The notes beneath the pieces are model-generated. The model did not search any database and was not told the origin of the DNA. It worked only from the letters and a program-made list of their open reading frames with translations. The position numbers and the translations under genes were made by a program. DNA of 48,273 nt from Parvularculaceae bacterium (GTDB taxonomy: Bacteria; Pseudomonadota; Alphaproteobacteria; Caulobacterales; Parvularculaceae). Below are positions 31,921-43,153 of the stretch, one piece after another. The DNA lies in assembly GCA_021776435.1 (NCBI GenBank), contig JAJFFW010000079.1, positions 1 through 48,273 of the forward strand. Reading direction: 5' to 3'. The stretch's first letter is position 1; each line of letters starts with the position of its first letter.

Positions 31921-33180
31921 TTAGGCCGCGCTGTTCGCCTTGTCGAGTCCATATGCCTGATGGAGAGCCCGAACCGCGAGCTCTGTATATTCGGAATCGA
32001 TCAATACACTGATCTTAATTTCTGAGGTCGAAATATTTTGAATATTGATCCCTCTTTCGGCGAGAATTTGAAACATCGTGGAAGCGACACCCGCATGGCT
32101 CTTCATACCCACGCCGATCACAGAAATCTTGGCGACGTTGTGATCCTTTTGAAGTGTGGAATATCCGATGGCTTCCTTTTGCACGGTGAGAAGTTCGACG
32201 GCGCGATCAAGGTCCGCTTCAGTCATGGTGAATGAAATATTCGCGGCGCCCGGATCTCGCGATGGGCTTTGTACGATCATGTCCACATTGATATTTGCAT
32301 CTGCGAGGAGCGTAAATATCTTCGCCGCTCGGCCGGGCTCATCACGCACCGCCAACAGACTGATCTTCGCTTCATCAAGAGCGGGCGTTACGGCGCTGAC
32401 TATTTGTTGTTCCACGATTTCTTCCTCGTCGCAGATGATTGTGCCCTGTCCCGGCGCATCCGGCGGATCAAAACTCGAAAGCACCCTAAGTCGTACATTA
32501 TAGGCCATGGCAAGTTCGACAGAACGGGTCTGGAGAACTTTTGCACCGACAGACGCCATTTCAAGCATCTCTTCATAAGAAATTCGGTCAATCCGCCGAG
32601 CCTGCTTTGTAATTCGCGGGTCGGTTGTATATACGCCATCAACATCGGTATAGATATCGCAACGATCTGCATGGATCGCCGCAGCGAGAGCAACCGCCGT
32701 TGTGTCCGACCCACCCCTACCGAGGGTTGTTATGCGAGAATTCTCAGAAACGCCCTGGAAACCGGCGACGATAGCTATTTCGCCGCTATCGATAGCAGAG
32801 CCGAGCGGTTCCTCAGGAATTCGAAGAATTCTTGCCCTTCCATGTCTCTGATCTGTCTCGGTCGGAAGTTGCCACCCCTGCCAGGAGCGGGCGCGATACC
32901 CAAGATTTTGCAGGACCAGGGCCAGCAGGCCTGACGTTACCTGTTCGCCAGTCGACACAATCGCGTCATACTCAACATAACGCGCATCAAGCGCCGCCGC
33001 CGCCGGTCCCGCTTCTTCAGCAAGCGCAACCAGCGCATTCGTTTGTCCAGACATCGCGGAAACGACCACAATAACGCTATGACCGTCATCCACCTCGCGC
33101 CGTACAAAACGAGCGACGTTGCGAATACGGTCCAAATCGGCGACAGATGTGCCGCCGAATTTCATAACGATACGCGCCAT
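31921..33180 (-). CDS. lysC: Aspartate kinase LysC
   Basis: Aspartokinase opens the pathway to lysine, threonine, methionine and diaminopimelate, so it also feeds the murE step encoded in this window. From the ATG at 33180, which has an AGGGA ribosome site, the product has 419 residues. It begins MARIVMKFGGTSVADLDRI, with a catalytic kinase domain and FTTLGRGGSDTT-like RITTLGRGGSDTTAVAL. Two C-terminal ACT domains for feedback control follow. The frame continues upstream to 33396 but runs antisense into ubiG. It diverges from ubiG by 115 bases. Confidence 0.96.
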   Translation of the reverse strand: MARIVMKFGGTSVADLDRIRNVARFVRREVDDGHSVIVVVSAMSGQTNALVALAEEAGPAAAALDARYVEYDAIVSTGEQVTSGLLALVLQNLGYRARSWQGWQLPTETDQRHGRARILRIPEEPLGSAIDSGEIAIVAGFQGVSENSRITTLGRGGSDTTAVALAAAIHADRCDIYTDVDGVYTTDPRITKQARRIDRISYEEMLEMASVGAKVLQTRSVELAMAYNVRLRVLSSFDPPDAPGQGTIICDEEEIVEQQIVSAVTPALDEAKISLLAVRDEPGRAAKIFTLLADANINVDMIVQSPSRDPGAANISFTMTEADLDRAVELLTVQKEAIGYSTLQKDHNVAKISVIGVGMKSHAGVASTMFQILAERGINIQNISTSEIKISVLIDSEYTELAVRALHQAYGLDKANSAA

Positions 33181-33295
33181 CTGCGTCCCTAAGGTGTTCG
33201 CTGACAGCGCGTATACACGCGCCGTCTTGTCTTCCGGTAACTGGCGCGTATCTCTAAGGACACGCCAAGCGCGAGGCAAGCGAGGATCTATCCCC

Positions 33296-34054
33296 ATGAC
33301 GGCCCAAATCAACACCACCGCGACCATCGATCCCGATGAAGTCAGCAAATTCAGTGCAATTGCTGAGGAATGGTGGGACCCGTTCGGGAAATTCAAGCCG
33401 CTTCACAAATTTAATCCTGTTCGCCTCGCCTATATCCGTGATGCGGTCTGCACCCATTTCAAACGCGACCCCCATTCGAAAAAGCCTTTTGAGGGTCTGA
33501 GGCTTTTAGATGTGGGGTGTGGCGGGGGGCTTGTTGCTGAACCGATGCGTCGGCTGGGAGCCGATGTCACGGCGATTGACGCCTCAGAGCGTAATATCAA
33601 AACCGCCCTCGCCCACTCCATGACGATGAAGCTCGACATTGATTACCGGGCGACGACCGTCGAATCGATTGCCGCGGCAGGATCGCCACCCTTCGACATC
33701 GTCCTTAATCTTGAAGTGGTTGAACACGTCGCAGATATCGATCTTTTTTTGAAAACTTCCGCCGACCTTGTTCGACCCGGTGGGATCATGACACTGGCTT
33801 CTATCAACCGTACACTGAAGGCATTCATCCTCGCCAAAGTTGGAGCGGAGTACGTTCTCGGCTGGCTGCCGCGTGGCGCCCATGATCCCCGCAAATTTGT
33901 GAAACCCGAAGAAGCGCGCCTCATCCTTAAAGGTTCAGGCTTGAACATAACGGCTGTCGCGGGTGTTTCTTATAACCCGTTAATCGACGTCTGGCGCATC
34001 AGTGAGGATACGCAGGTCAATTACATGCTGACGGCGGTGAAGGCACAAAAGTAG
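33296..34054 (+). CDS. ubiG: Ubiquinone biosynthesis O-methyltransferase UbiG
   Basis: UbiG carries out both O-methylations of ubiquinone synthesis. From the ATG at 33296 (GAGGA ribosome site) the product has 252 residues. It begins with the family block DEVSKFSAIAEEWWDPFGKF, then HKFNPVRLAYIRD, the SAM motif LLDVGCGGGLVAEPM, and FDIVLNLEVVEHV. The last residues are VNYMLTAVKAQK. The DNA for VNYMLTAVKA recurs 3.0 kb downstream after the next gene, which suggests that the current 3' end was supplied by an inserted segment. The protein itself looks complete. Confidence 0.95.
   Translation: MTAQINTTATIDPDEVSKFSAIAEEWWDPFGKFKPLHKFNPVRLAYIRDAVCTHFKRDPHSKKPFEGLRLLDVGCGGGLVAEPMRRLGADVTAIDASERNIKTALAHSMTMKLDIDYRATTVESIAAAGSPPFDIVLNLEVVEHVADIDLFLKTSADLVRPGGIMTLASINRTLKAFILAKVGAEYVLGWLPRGAHDPRKFVKPEEARLILKGSGLNITAVAGVSYNPLIDVWRISEDTQVNYMLTAVKAQK
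34016..34044 (+). repeat. Left copy of a 29-bp direct repeat (ubiG 3' end)
   Basis: This 29-base stretch codes for VNYMLTAVKA at the ubiG C-terminus and matches 37012-37040 at 28 of 29 bases. The two copies are 2,996 bases apart and bracket the M28 peptidase gene. It could be one boundary of an insertion into ubiG. Confidence 0.9.
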
Positions 34055-34252
34055 CTACTAGCTGTCTCGCAGGCTAATTGCTTTTCTTGCAGATTCTTTT
34101 GCGGTTTATTACTCTAATTATGACGTAAATGTAATATTGCTCGACGATTCCAGATTGCTTTGCAGTGTTAGCTTTGACGCCTCGCGCGCATCTATCGCTT
34201 TGTGCAGCTTCAAAGGCTTTAAAGCGCGCCAACGAGGGGTCGGGGAAACATC

Positions 34253-36997
34253 ATGAAAGCTATCTTCAGGTCCGTACTCGTGTTGGCGATTTTTGTCGCG
34301 CTGTCCGGCCCGATGAGCATATGGGCGCAACAAAACCACGAGGCAGGCGACTATTCCCCGCAATTTTCCGGCGCAGCGTTTAAGAATCGTGTCCGTTATC
34401 TCGCTTCCGACGAACTGGCGGGCCGGGCGCCGGGAACCGAAGGCGGGCGGCGGGCGGCGGCCTATCTCGCGAAAGAATTCAAGCGCATCGGCCTCGAACC
34501 GCGCGCCGGCGCGAAGGACTTTTTTCAGAACATTCCTCTAGTCGGTTCGACCGTCTCACCCGACAGCGCGCGCCTGACGGTCAACGCCGAAGCCGCGGAC
34601 GGCCCGCTTGTCATCACTCATGACGACATCGCCTTTCGCACCCAATTTATTGACTGCGCGACCTGCATGCTTTCGGGCGAGGTGGTCTTCGGCGGTTATG
34701 GCATCGACGCGAGGGAATACGGCTGGAACGACTACGGCGACGTTTCGCTTGCGGGAAAATTCGTCCTGCTGCTGCGCGGACTCCCGGAAGCCGCCGAAGC
34801 GCTGGTCCCCGGCGGCGGCTACAGCTATTACGAAGACGATGACGTAAAAATCGAACAGGCGCGCCAGCGCGGCGCCGCCGGCGTGATTTTCCTGACTGCG
34901 TCCGACCAAGAATCCAATTTCTCCGATACGGCCGCAGCGTGGCGGCAGGAATTCGTTCAGCCGGACTGGCTGCGCGGCCGGCCCTTATCCGTTATCGCAT
35001 GGCTTTCGCCCGATGCGACTGCACGGTTTTTGGACGCCGCCGGCGGGTCTCTTGACGCCCTTAGCGCTGAAGCCGCGCAGGCCACGTTCGCCGTCCGCCC
35101 TCTCGGCGCATCTCTGCAAGGGAGTTTTACGCAGTCGGTGCGGCGGTTTTCTTCGTCTAATATCGTTGGCGTCGTTCCGGGCGCAGCGCCTGAAACCGGA
35201 ACCGTCGTCGTCACCGCCCATTGGGATCATTTGGGCGTCGGCGCGCCCGACGAGGACGGCGACGCCATATATAACGGCGCAAAGGATAATGCGTCAGGCG
35301 TGGCGGGATTGATCGCCCTCGCCGAAGCGGCGAAAGCGGCGGGCGCGCAGCGAAATATCGTCTTTGTCGCCACGACGGCGGAAGAAGCGGACTATGCGCA
35401 AATCGGCGCGCGCTATTATGTCGAACATCCCGCCTTTCCCATCGCTGAGACGGTCGTCAATTTGAATTTCGACGGCGTCGACGTCATCTGGCCGGCGCGT
35501 AATTTTATGGTCATGCCGCCCAATGGAACATCGGCGGGGCCGACAATGGCCGCGCTCGCCAAACCGCTGAATAAAACGGTCACGGAGCAACCCTGGCTGC
35601 CGAGTCTCAATTTCAGCTTCGATACGGCGGAATTCATGGCGCAGGGCGTGCCGGGCGTCACGCTGTGGGGCGGCTCGGGATTCCGCCTCGAGAACCTGAC
35701 CGTTGACGCGCTGCGCAAGCGCTATGCGCGGCTGGGCGGCAAGATTCATACGCCCCAGGACGAATATTCCAAGGACTGGAGCGAAAAGGCGATTGAAGAG
35801 CATCTCGAACTCTATTGGGCGGCCCTTTCCTATTGGGCCAATGGCGGCGCGGCCCTGATTATCGATCCGAAAGGCCCTCTTGCGCCGCTCCTCGCGGCGG
35901 GCGGTCCGCCCTATCGCGCGCTGGCGGAGAAAATCGTCGAGCGCATGGACCTTCAGCCTGGCGAAAAGGTGCTGATGCTGTGTCATCCGACTCTATTTCA
36001 GAAAATCATTCCGCATTTGCGCTACGCCGTGATGCGCGCCGGCGGCGTCAATCTGGGTTGCCTGCAGGATTTGCCGCAGCCTTTCCCGCGCTACTGGCGG
36101 CGTGATCCCGTCCTGCGCGGCTTTACAGAAAGCCGCGACGCCATGGCCCGCATGGCGCGCGCCGCCGACGCATTTATCGCCCTGCCCGGAACCTGGCCGA
36201 ACCAGTCCGCTTATCTGGGCGTTCAGGATATTTTAAAGAGCGGCCGGGGGCGGATCGTGCATTTCCACTGGCTCGGCGGCTATTCGCTTTTAAGAGAACA
36301 GCTGCCGGCGACGCCGCGGATGGACCGCACCTACGCGGTCGCCGTTCTTGAAACCGATTACGACGCTCTCGCCGATCAGCAGAGGCGTTTTGTCGACGCC
36401 GCGCGCAAGGGCGAAATCAGAGTGACCACGCCCGCCGGCACGGATGTCCGCTTCCGTCTCGGCAAACGCCGCCCTGTCAATATCCAGGACGGCGACGCCT
36501 CGGCGGTGCGGGCGCTCCAGGCGAAGATATTGATCGACCGCGAGGTCGAACTGCCCGCCGGCGCGGTGCGCTTCGCGCCGATCGAGGATAGCGTCGAAGG
36601 CTTCATCGTGTTTACGGATTCCTACTGGAACGACGAATTCGTACGCGCGCCCCGCCTGACGTTCCGGCAGGGACAAGTCGTGGAAGTCTCAGCCGCGGAA
36701 AACGTCGCGGCGCTGGAAGCCGAACTTGAAGGAGGCGGCGAGGCGGCCCGGCGCCTGCGCGGCTTCGCGCTCGGTTTCAATCCGTATCTCGCCGTCCCTG
36801 AAGACGAACCCTGGATTCCCTATTACGGATACGGCGCCGGTGTCGTGCGCCTGTCCCTCGGCGAAAACGGTGAGCTCGGCGGCAAGATCAAAGGCGATTA
36901 TTCCCGCTGGAACTTTTTCACCGACGCGACGGTCGAAATCGACGGCGTCGCCTGGGTTGAAAACGGAAAGCTCGTCAATACGCCGCCGGCGCAATAG
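34253..36997 (+). CDS. Secreted M28 metallopeptidase fused to a degenerate M29/NicX-like domain
   Basis: A 914-residue protein with a signal peptide (cleavage near WAQ, residue 26). Residues about 40-530 form an M28 aminopeptidase with a PA-type insert. All expected zinc ligands are visible: H323 and D325 in TAHWDHLG, D345 in KDNASG, E377-E378, D407 in NLNFDGVD, and H499 in KIHTPQDEY. Residues about 555-914 resemble M29 aminopeptidase T/NicX proteins: LQPGEKVLMLCHP, TTPAGTDVRFRLG, ELPAGAVRFAPIEDS, the FALGFNP motif, and a terminal DATVEIDG. Several residues where M29 has metal ligands differ: GEV is GAV at 770-772, and the expected histidines appear as R866 and W886. This second half is probably inactive as a peptidase. 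The gene is GC-richer than its neighbours. Confidence 0.82.
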   Translation: MKAIFRSVLVLAIFVALSGPMSIWAQQNHEAGDYSPQFSGAAFKNRVRYLASDELAGRAPGTEGGRRAAAYLAKEFKRIGLEPRAGAKDFFQNIPLVGSTVSPDSARLTVNAEAADGPLVITHDDIAFRTQFIDCATCMLSGEVVFGGYGIDAREYGWNDYGDVSLAGKFVLLLRGLPEAAEALVPGGGYSYYEDDDVKIEQARQRGAAGVIFLTASDQESNFSDTAAAWRQEFVQPDWLRGRPLSVIAWLSPDATARFLDAAGGSLDALSAEAAQATFAVRPLGASLQGSFTQSVRRFSSSNIVGVVPGAAPETGTVVVTAHWDHLGVGAPDEDGDAIYNGAKDNASGVAGLIALAEAAKAAGAQRNIVFVATTAEEADYAQIGARYYVEHPAFPIAETVVNLNFDGVDVIWPARNFMVMPPNGTSAGPTMAALAKPLNKTVTEQPWLPSLNFSFDTAEFMAQGVPGVTLWGGSGFRLENLTVDALRKRYARLGGKIHTPQDEYSKDWSEKAIEEHLELYWAALSYWANGGAALIIDPKGPLAPLLAAGGPPYRALAEKIVERMDLQPGEKVLMLCHPTLFQKIIPHLRYAVMRAGGVNLGCLQDLPQPFPRYWRRDPVLRGFTESRDAMARMARAADAFIALPGTWPNQSAYLGVQDILKSGRGRIVHFHWLGGYSLLREQLPATPRMDRTYAVAVLETDYDALADQQRRFVDAARKGEIRVTTPAGTDVRFRLGKRRPVNIQDGDASAVRALQAKILIDREVELPAGAVRFAPIEDSVEGFIVFTDSYWNDEFVRAPRLTFRQGQVVEVSAAENVAALEAELEGGGEAARRLRGFALGFNPYLAVPEDEPWIPYYGYGAGVVRLSLGENGELGGKIKGDYSRWNFFTDATVEIDGVAWVENGKLVNTPPAQ

Positions 36998-37053
36998 ATT
37001 ATAACGTCAGCGTCAATTATATGCTGACGGCGGTGAAGGCGGGGGATCGTTAA
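36997..37053 (+). pseudogene. Detached second copy of the ubiG 3' end
   Basis: Overlapping the stop of the M28 gene by one base, the plus strand reads D-Y-N-V-S-VNYMLTAVKA-GDR-stop in one frame, which is a UbiG C-terminus without the rest of the gene. Its TAA (37051-37053) overlaps the stop of the convergent patatin gene. It is best explained as the original or donor end of ubiG, now cut off by an inserted segment. It has no start and is not expected to be translated. Confidence 0.8.
37012..37040 (+). repeat. Right copy of the 29-bp ubiG-end direct repeat
   Basis: Matches 34016-34044 at 28 of 29 bases, with one C-to-T change in the third position of the Tyr codon. With the left copy it frames a unit of about 3.0 kb. 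Confidence 0.9.
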
Positions 37054-38789
37054 TCACCCCGCGCCGCCTCGGCGATTGGGCCTAGCGTCGCCCAGTGCGC
37101 TTTAATGGCGTCTTTCGTTACTTCATAACCGGACGTCACGGCAGAACCGTATAAGCGCCAGTCGCGTAATTCGACACCGGCAACGTCGGGTGCAATCATA
37201 ATGTCGGCAGGGTGCGCCATGAGCGTATTTTCATGGCGGGCGGTCGCGGAGCGCATCAAAAGACTGACGATCGGCGGCGCGCTGCGAAAACCGTGCTTCC
37301 CTATCCAACGAAGAAAGCCGGGGGGGTCCTCAAAATCAGCGGCTCTGATCGAGCCACGGCGGGCCACATCAATACCGATGGTCAATCCGCGATGCATGCC
37401 CGACATCAAGTCAGTGGGGAAATTATTAATCACCGCGCCATCGACAAGTAGCGCTGCGCCATCGACCACCGGCGGTAGAATTCCCGGCAACGCGATGGAA
37501 GCCCGCAAGGCCTTCCGTAGCAGGCCCCGTCGATGCACCCGCACCACGCCTTCGGTGAGTTCTGAAGAAACGCAGAAAAACGGCAGCATAAGGTCTTCGA
37601 TCCGCGCATCGCCGAAGTGCGTCAGGAGCCTGTCTTCGACGCGCTTTCCCCGCGTCAACGCCACGACCGGCAATACGTGGTCAGAGAGTGGATTAGAAAA
37701 TACAAAAGCTTCACAGATGCGACGCTCTATTTCTTCATCCGACCATTCCATAGCGACGCAGGCGGCAACGATCCCACCCATGCTCGATCCACAAACAAAA
37801 TCAATCGGCACACCCGCTTCCCGCAAAGCTTTAACAGCGCCGATCTGCGCATAAGCGCGCGCGCCGCCACCCGAAAGCACCAGTCCGACTGAAACCCCTC
37901 CAATGGCGCGTGCAAGACGATTAACACAAGCATCATTGCGCAGATGGAAGATCCGATTTGCATCTATCGCGTCCACCCATTCGAGCACCTCACATGCGGG
38001 TTCTCCTTCATGGAGGATCACGAGATCGACCAGCCGGAACTTACGCGCCGGTGAGTCTTCTGCCGGCATTAAAGGGAAAGGTTTTGACGGCCTCGCATCT
38101 CTCCGTGCAAAGACGAAGAAGCGGTCGGCTTGGCGCAAGACAAATCGATACCAGGGCGAGTCGGCAATGCGTGCGGCGAGAATAACAATATCGTGGGTGG
38201 CTTCGATATTTTCAGCGGTTTGCGTCGGTGGCGCCGTCTCCGCGTCCGGCATGAAATGGACCGAGAGGCCATATCGCTCGATTTTTTTCGCCATCCGATT
38301 GGCCAACGCATCGATATCAATCGACGGAGAAGAACCAATCAGGGCAAAAACGCGTGGTGAAGACTGACTAAAGTTCGATTTGGGATGACGGGTTCGCCCC
38401 AACACCGCCCGAACCAAAAGACCTGCGAGGTCTGAATGCTCTTCAAAAAGCGCGTCAAAATCAGCTTGCGACAAAGCGAGGATTTCAGTATCCCGCAAGG
38501 CGTAAACGGACGCCGAATGCCGCTCGTCAGAAAGAAGCGCCATTTCCCCAACGGGTTCGCCGGCGCGAATATATCCAATCACCTCTTCGCCGTCCGGACA
38601 TTGACGAACGACAATCAGACGCCCTGAAAGTACGAAATAGATGGTATCGGACGGCGCGCCCTGTTTAAACAATTCCCATCCACCGGCAAGCGAATACCAC
38701 TGCCCGCGATCAATCATCGCTCTGCGTGTCGCCGGTTCAAGGGAGCGAAAAAATTCGAGTTGGTTAAGGCGTTCGACGACTGGTTTCAT
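37050..38789 (-). CDS. cNMP-binding patatin-like phospholipase (NTE/PNPLA6 type)
   Basis: The 579-residue product joins an N-terminal cyclic-nucleotide-binding domain (about 12-130, with GEPVGEMALLSDERHSAS as the phosphate cassette) to a C-terminal patatin hydrolase domain. The oxyanion loop is LVLSGGGARAYAQIG near 304-318. The nucleophile is S336 in GSSMGG, and the dyad aspartate is D450 in LLVDGAVINNFP. The middle segment (about 145-290) is of the type found in neuropathy-target-esterase relatives. Such proteins hydrolyse lysophospholipids at membranes; cNMP binding may regulate them. It converges with ubiG, its stop overlapping the detached ubiG tail. The 273-base gap upstream (38790-39062) holds no gene. 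Confidence 0.92.
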   Translation of the reverse strand: MKPVVERLNQLEFFRSLEPATRRAMIDRGQWYSLAGGWELFKQGAPSDTIYFVLSGRLIVVRQCPDGEEVIGYIRAGEPVGEMALLSDERHSASVYALRDTEILALSQADFDALFEEHSDLAGLLVRAVLGRTRHPKSNFSQSSPRVFALIGSSPSIDIDALANRMAKKIERYGLSVHFMPDAETAPPTQTAENIEATHDIVILAARIADSPWYRFVLRQADRFFVFARRDARPSKPFPLMPAEDSPARKFRLVDLVILHEGEPACEVLEWVDAIDANRIFHLRNDACVNRLARAIGGVSVGLVLSGGGARAYAQIGAVKALREAGVPIDFVCGSSMGGIVAACVAMEWSDEEIERRICEAFVFSNPLSDHVLPVVALTRGKRVEDRLLTHFGDARIEDLMLPFFCVSSELTEGVVRVHRRGLLRKALRASIALPGILPPVVDGAALLVDGAVINNFPTDLMSGMHRGLTIGIDVARRGSIRAADFEDPPGFLRWIGKHGFRSAPPIVSLLMRSATARHENTLMAHPADIMIAPDVAGVELRDWRLYGSAVTSGYEVTKDAIKAHWATLGPIAEAARGD

Positions 38790-39062
38790 AGCCTATCTTT
38801 TAGACCCTTTTGCTGACCACCGCCCCCTTCATCGTCAGCAATATCTGTTTAGCTTTTATCCAAAAAACCTCTCACGCAACCAGACGCCCCATTCCGGGAA
38901 TCAGATTTTGCGAACATGGTTACCCTGCAGCTCATCACAGATCGCATCAGACCGAATTCAGTCCGGCAAAAAAGGCGGCCTGATTTCGAATACGCCCGTT
39001 TAAATTGGATTGAGCGAAATCATGGCCTGTCAAAGACATAGGATTGCAACCGGCTTTGGTGG

Positions 39063-42514: not shown

Positions 42515-43153
42515 CTACGGCCGCTCGTGATAACCATAATGGGTAGCAAACCAATCGGCAAAACCTTCTGCTTTTTTGTCCGACTTGCAATTATGGTTTG
42601 CTCGGTCGACATGATGTCCAATTTCATGCATCAGCACCTCACGCTCGAAGAACGTTTTTAGCGCATCTCGATCAAACCTAATCCTTAGGCCGGATTTATG
42701 TTCTTCCATTATCGCACCCGCTCTTCTATATTCGTATAAAGTGCTGGGTTTCGGGATGGAATAATATATCCTTTCGAGCCGTTTCTTAGGGAATGCATGG
42801 ATAAAGATTTTGTTTGAAAAATAGACCCCGTAAGTAAGAAGACGCCATGACTTAAGTTGCTTATTGGTTCCCCCAAGAAGAACAATCGCTTCGAGATTTC
42901 GCACAAATTCAGCAGGTAACTTACCCACCATAACTTTCACATCAAATAGCTTGAGCGGTGAAACAAAGTTTGGATGTGTGCGTAGCTGTTGAAATAAAAT
43001 ACCCTTATGGTTTTCCAGTTTCTGCTCAATTTTTGAAAGTGCGGCCGAAACCTCAAGGTCCCATGGGTCATAAGACCGCAAATTCGTGTATTTTGATTTT
43101 GACCATGAGCCTGATCTTATGCCGCCGTTGTGCATAAAGATTTTTCCAGACAT
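42515..43153 (-). CDS. Hypothetical HEIGH-motif zinc metallopeptidase-like protein
   Basis: A 212-residue protein with a clear GGAGAAAA ribosome site. Near the C-terminus it has the zinc-binding HEIGH at residues 176-180, followed by E196 in a conserved-looking EGFADWFATHYG, the gluzincin HExxH...E arrangement. No signal peptide is seen. The N-terminal 140 residues are lysine-rich and match no family I know. Codon use and base content (AT-rich, many AAA/TTT) differ from the surrounding housekeeping genes and suggest horizontal acquisition. Its target is unknown; small HExxH proteins of this kind occur in toxin, immunity and phage contexts. Confidence 0.75.
   Translation of the reverse strand: MSGKIFMHNGGIRSGSWSKSKYTNLRSYDPWDLEVSAALSKIEQKLENHKGILFQQLRTHPNFVSPLKLFDVKVMVGKLPAEFVRNLEAIVLLGGTNKQLKSWRLLTYGVYFSNKIFIHAFPKKRLERIYYSIPKPSTLYEYRRAGAIMEEHKSGLRIRFDRDALKTFFEREVLMHEIGHHVDRANHNCKSDKKAEGFADWFATHYGYHERP

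Follow-up and report, generated by a model that had tools for sequence, protein, structure and literature searches.

The window analysed here, a stretch of 48,273 nucleotides from a Parvularculaceae draft genome, contains a pair of convergent genes with a further gene between them. On the plus strand lies ubiG (33296-34054), an intact gene whose translation of 252 aa ends in VNYMLTAVKAQK before the stop and matches TIGR01983 (UbiG) with 268 bits against a cut-off of 102.95. It is followed on the same strand by the gene of a 914-aa peptidase protein (34253-36997), preceded by a leader of its own (34055-34252), and on the minus strand by the gene of a patatin-like phospholipase with a cyclic-nucleotide-binding domain (37050-38789; PF01734, PF00027). 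The peptidase gene and its leader are bracketed by two copies of a short repeat which corresponds to the last codons of ubiG.

Two copies of the ubiG end

The repeat is the 29-nt block GTCAATTAYATGCTGACGGCGGTGAAGGC, present in the last codons of ubiG (copy 1, 34016-34044, plus strand) and, as the first-pass annotation had claimed, again behind the M28 peptidase gene (copy 2, 37012-37040, plus strand) with 28 of 29 bases identical. The single difference is TAC against TAT, and the longest exact run common to both copies is 20 nt. Searches with up to three mismatches retrieve the block twice from the window and never from 100 dinucleotide shuffles, which rules out a chance repeat; in the whole 2.96-Mb genome (142 contigs) the same tolerance returns two matches and no third copy, which rules out a multicopy repeat. 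The insert presumably comprises the 2967 bp between the two cores (34045-37011, plus strand).

Copy 2 continues in frame as VNYMLTAVKAGDR and terminates with a TAA at 37051-37053, while the patatin gene stops with a TTA at 37050-37052 as read on the plus strand, TTAA being common to both stops. The same annotation had described a second UbiG tail, ending in GDR-stop, that overlaps the patatin stop, and the translation agrees with it. The complete relic UbiG tail on the plus strand (37006-37053, VSVNYMLTAVKAGDR-stop) is a noncoding remnant, and its part left of 37012 is weakly ubiG-like. The 29-nt block is ubiG coding sequence and is itself conserved at the DNA level within the family: 25 relatives agree with either copy at 17-27 of the 29 positions, and among 300 pairs of relatives one reaches 28/29 and four reach 27. 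Given this conservation, the identity of 28/29 provides neither a date for the event nor proof of direct copying.

The two copies are alike in the core and different in both arms. To the right of the core, copy 2 displays the native end and copy 1 the AQK-stop end followed by the leader. To the left, the arm of copy 1 scores as ordinary ubiG sequence, and the arm of copy 2, at lengths of at least 9 nt, has a ubiG score below those of all 25 relatives. Between 2.4 and 7.9% of the stretches of the M28 gene score as high as this left arm (1.1-21% in gapped alignment, depending on length). A blastn match of 83% over 54 nt connects positions 36988-37041 with the ubiG end of one relative (G060), and tests of the copy 2 arm by itself are weak. 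Since this arm resembles ubiG only weakly, a genuine ubiG need not have been part of the incoming DNA.

Two symmetrical motifs lie at or near the copies. A perfect 10-bp palindrome, AGTAGCTACT, spans the ubiG stop codon at 34050-34059, just within the left end of the insert. At copy 2 an inverted repeat (CGTCAGC-N11-GCTGACG, 37006-37033), recognised by eye, surrounds the left part of the core; it is probably due to chance, and similar coding sequence occurs in the ubiG of some relatives.

The peptidase gene and its leader

The only gene-sized ORF between the two copies encodes the 914-aa protein, whose N-terminus resembles a signal peptide by eye. An M28 domain at about residues 303-521 is matched by PF04389 with 109.9 bits (cut-off 21.3). 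An M29-like domain begins near residue 555 and continues to the C-terminus; its match to PF02073 is weak and partial, covering about positions 193-318 of 406, and scores 29.1 bits with the whole protein and 31.2 bits with only the C-terminal part (cut-off 27). In the four nearest homologues of the M29-like part a (L/S)HRW stretch is found, of which the histidine, presumably among the residues that bind metal in the M29 family, is replaced by serine in the 914-aa protein. Judged from this replacement, the M29-like half may not be catalytic.

The C-terminal half finds its nearest homologues, at 32-34% identity, in ORFs of about 330-414 codons that lack an M28 part. Among the 62 genomes of the family, the whole protein is matched at E 1e-70 or better in its own genome only. 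M28 relatives of about 30% identity do occur in the family, and the same genome encodes two of them; at this distance the peptidase gene is no close copy of a resident gene. The fusion of an M28 with an M29-like domain is so far unmatched: no second full-length example was found in the family genomes, the class, order and phylum samples, the genome contigs or the plasmid records, and no donor of the gene was found in the samples, contigs and plasmid records. The scan of genome contigs with the 914-aa protein returned one distant relative, covering residues 36-522. In the class, order and phylum samples, where matches are those among the best few first-look candidates scored, the protein is matched in 2 of 397 other genomes of the phylum sample by its M28 part only, and the C-terminal part in 8 of 384 others (class sample) and 1 of 397 others (order sample), all of them weak or at most 34% identical. 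None of 15 plasmid records covers 80% of the peptidase gene product.

The composition of the gene deviates from its surroundings. Its GC content is 0.625, compared to 0.538 in ubiG, 0.562 in patatin, 0.46 in the leader (34055-34252) and 0.547 in the window. The contrast between a GC-richer M28 gene and ubiG, which had been reported from sampled lines, thus holds, but the figures given with it (about 70 and 48 percent) do not, the measured values being 62.5% and 53.8%. At third codon positions the M28 gene reaches a GC content (GC3) of 0.725, while 28 other window ORFs, chosen from the ORF list as likely genes, average 0.550 (sd 0.048; z = 3.6).

The leader has no match longer than 23 nt in the compared loci besides its own genome. 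No strong terminator or structured RNA is indicated for the leader, with a fold z of 0.06 and four terminator-like sites where 5.0 are expected. A tRNA or RNA-family target is likewise ruled out, as the window contains no tRNA and the region 33000-38800, leader included, no Rfam match, and a phage protein is ruled out by the lack of any PHROG match.

The ubiG-patatin junction in the family

Matches at E 1e-60 or better were found for ubiG in 59 and for patatin in 37 of the 62 family genomes. Both genes lie convergently on one contig in 26 genomes, including the present one; of the other 11 patatin carriers, ten have ubiG on a different contig and one has no ubiG match. Among the 26 genomes compared, ubiG-patatin is a family-wide variable convergent junction between conserved genes. 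It is empty in 10 of the 25 relatives, with stop-to-stop gaps of -4, -4, 7, 14, 18, 24, 86, 104, 105 and 169 bp, and occupied by 645-5047 bp with other genes in the remaining 15. All empty sites belong to other genera, with UbiG proteins 63-76% identical to the present one; the set contains no genome of the same genus. Two relatives from two genera (G057 and G011) display the same overlap of stops by four bases that is seen here between the relic and patatin. This supports the earlier proposal that ubiG and patatin were ancestrally in direct convergence, and, as to the checks proposed along with it, relatives of other genera provide both junctions that lack the M28 gene and junctions with other genes at the same point.

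The cargo of the occupied junctions is diverse. Four relatives possess an orphan ORF of 482-558 aa, and three a TetR-MFS-HlyD efflux set, in two of them recognised by Pfam and in the third by blastp to those. Related ORFs of about 175 aa are found in two relatives, and a longer relative of these ORFs in a third, beside a tricorn-like S41 protein. A winged-helix regulator together with other genes occurs in two, and unrelated ORFs without Pfam match in three. The junction cargo of the relatives (loci L091-L093 and L123-L134) also includes a sulfotransferase with a 2OG oxygenase. The peptidase ORF matches none of the ORFs of these other inserts and is found at the junction only in its own genome. 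The present insert shares with them its place, an unrelated accessory cargo and the sparing of the core genes. It differs in the duplication, which among the genomes compared occurs only here: a duplicated ubiG end is not recognisable in any of the 15 occupied relatives, in which the best same-orientation ungapped match to the own 29-nt tail is 14-18 of 29.

Because empty junctions exist, because the gene occurs only here, and because its GC3 lies 3.6 sd above that of its neighbours, the peptidase gene is an insertion, acquired at a convergent junction of variable content. Comparison of the sequences makes the old ubiG end the best reading of the copy next to patatin, and the AQK-stop end which ubiG now uses would be the newer one. 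Three observations agree in this. VNYM lies equally far from the stop in G057 (VNYMLTAIKAENH) and in copy 2 (VNYMLTAVKAGDR), the -4 overlaps recur in relatives, and joining the two flanks through the core restores a UbiG of 253 aa with the normal end VNYMLTAVKAGDR, overlapping the patatin stop. An insertion with regeneration of the ubiG 3' end had been suggested at the outset; it is in line with an intact ubiG, an old end beyond the insert and an M28 gene found at the junction only here.

Origin of the insertion

We consider it fairly probable that the last codons of ubiG received a single foreign gene, together with its leader, by way of the 29-nt block, most likely in one crossover. At the start, ubiG and patatin would have ended on overlapping stop codons. 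The incoming DNA, an M28 and M29-like fusion gene with its own leader, would have had the 29-nt block in common with ubiG, and this block would have been the entry point. Most likely a small circle would then have recombined with the chromosome in one crossover, dependent on RecA or on microhomology, unless a linear event had the same effect. The left side of the product would be native ubiG followed by the core and the end brought in (AQK-stop), and the right side incoming DNA, the core and the native GDR-stop end that overlaps patatin. Arms swapped around a common core are the outcome of a single crossover, be it by RecA, microhomology or an integrase, and a long target duplication looks alike. 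A crossover without a dedicated recombinase appears preferable, since no recombinase is encoded in the insert and the site has not been used again. A block of 29 nt, with a longest identical run of 20 bases, comes close to the minimum that RecA requires. We infer both the crossover with its agent and the circle, as well as the origin of the cargo in another organism.

A comparable case is known from Escherichia coli, where the integration of small molecules homologous to the end of lacZ led in most cases to a partial duplication of that end, explained by a single crossover of a circle (PMC3240628). This Campbell-type integration resembles the present locus in that the incoming DNA is flanked on both sides by the duplicated end of its target gene. 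The duplicated stretches measured 109-950 bp in those experiments, however, against 29 (at most about 48) nt here, and for the present insert neither a donor nor a circle was observed.

If the empty sites represent the earlier state, overlapping stops would permit an unharmed entry between ubiG and patatin only when one of the gene ends is supplied twice, which is what happened here; relatives with a spacer between the two genes would have no need for a doubled end. The locus thereby offers a readable before-and-after picture of the gain of a gene at a tight spot, with both neighbours unbroken.

Alternatively, the insert may have arisen by site-specific integration at the ubiG 3' end, with a tyrosine or serine recombinase that acted in trans or has since been lost, and with the repeats as attL and attR; we regard this as unlikely. 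Such integration classically yields a short core flanked by different arms, together with a restored 3' end; the insert deviates in composition, and five PF00589 matches (tyrosine recombinases) are present elsewhere in the genome, on other contigs. Yet the insert has no recombinase gene, the genome no further copy of the core and none of the 15 occupied relatives a repeated ubiG end; nor is there a recombinase among the Pfam-scanned genes, a subset of the ORFs, of the other junction inserts. The lack of duplicated ends in the occupied relatives implies that the duplicated ubiG end is no recurring attachment site. A search of the literature, not an exhaustive one, turned up no paper that describes ubiG as an attachment site; a table of plasticity regions in one source has a single mention of nagC/ubiG (PMC3091717).

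Genomic islands can integrate at the 3' end of tRNA genes or of protein genes such as guaA and prfC. The insert shares with them a short direct repeat at both bounds, one copy of which completes the host gene, the displacement of the old end, a different base composition, and an empty site in relatives (10 of 25, in other genera only). It is unlike them in consisting of one gene, in having no recombinase, and in a repeat that is reused neither in relatives nor elsewhere in the genome. The likeness to elements at tRNA or guaA ends that the first-pass annotation had drawn therefore finds no support, as neither a recombinase in the insert nor a duplicated ubiG end in the 15 occupied relatives is present.

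A different possibility is that the ubiG end was duplicated locally, by tandem duplication or template switching, and that the peptidase gene arrived separately, before or after. Independence of the two is conceivable, since 15 relatives gained genes at the junction without any ubiG duplication. Against such a history, which we judge quite unlikely, copy 2 lies 15 nt past the peptidase stop and copy 1 in ubiG, so that the repeat brackets exactly the foreign-looking stretch, and a single event accounts for both repeat and insert.

A transposition-like event would leave the same structure, a target block directly repeated on either side of 2967 bp, but the duplication of 29 bp would be unusually long, target duplications being usually shorter. 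The insert moreover contains no transposase and no terminal inverted repeats, exact inverted matches of at least 7 bp being absent from the outer 60 nt of its two ends, and we consider this origin very improbable. A similarly slim chance is given to a mobile gene that resembles a cassette, about 3 kb long and without a recombinase of its own, which would have been moved in trans and entered through a short mimic of the ubiG tail, the tail, conserved in DNA across the family, being its attachment site; if this were true, further units of the same set might exist, of which this one would be the first to be seen.

An assembly artefact or contamination is scarcely credible: the genome is a draft of 142 contigs, but the insert is internal to a contig of 48 kb and has synteny with the family to its left and right, the copies agree exactly over no more than 20 nt where common assembly k-mers are longer, sequence differences separate the copies themselves as well as both arms, and other family members vary at the same junction.

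Outside the ubiG-patatin region, a minus-strand ORF at 42515-43153 has a GC content of 42.6%, compared to 54.7% in the window, and a weak helix-turn-helix match below the cut-off. It is possible that this ORF represents a further acquired gene.
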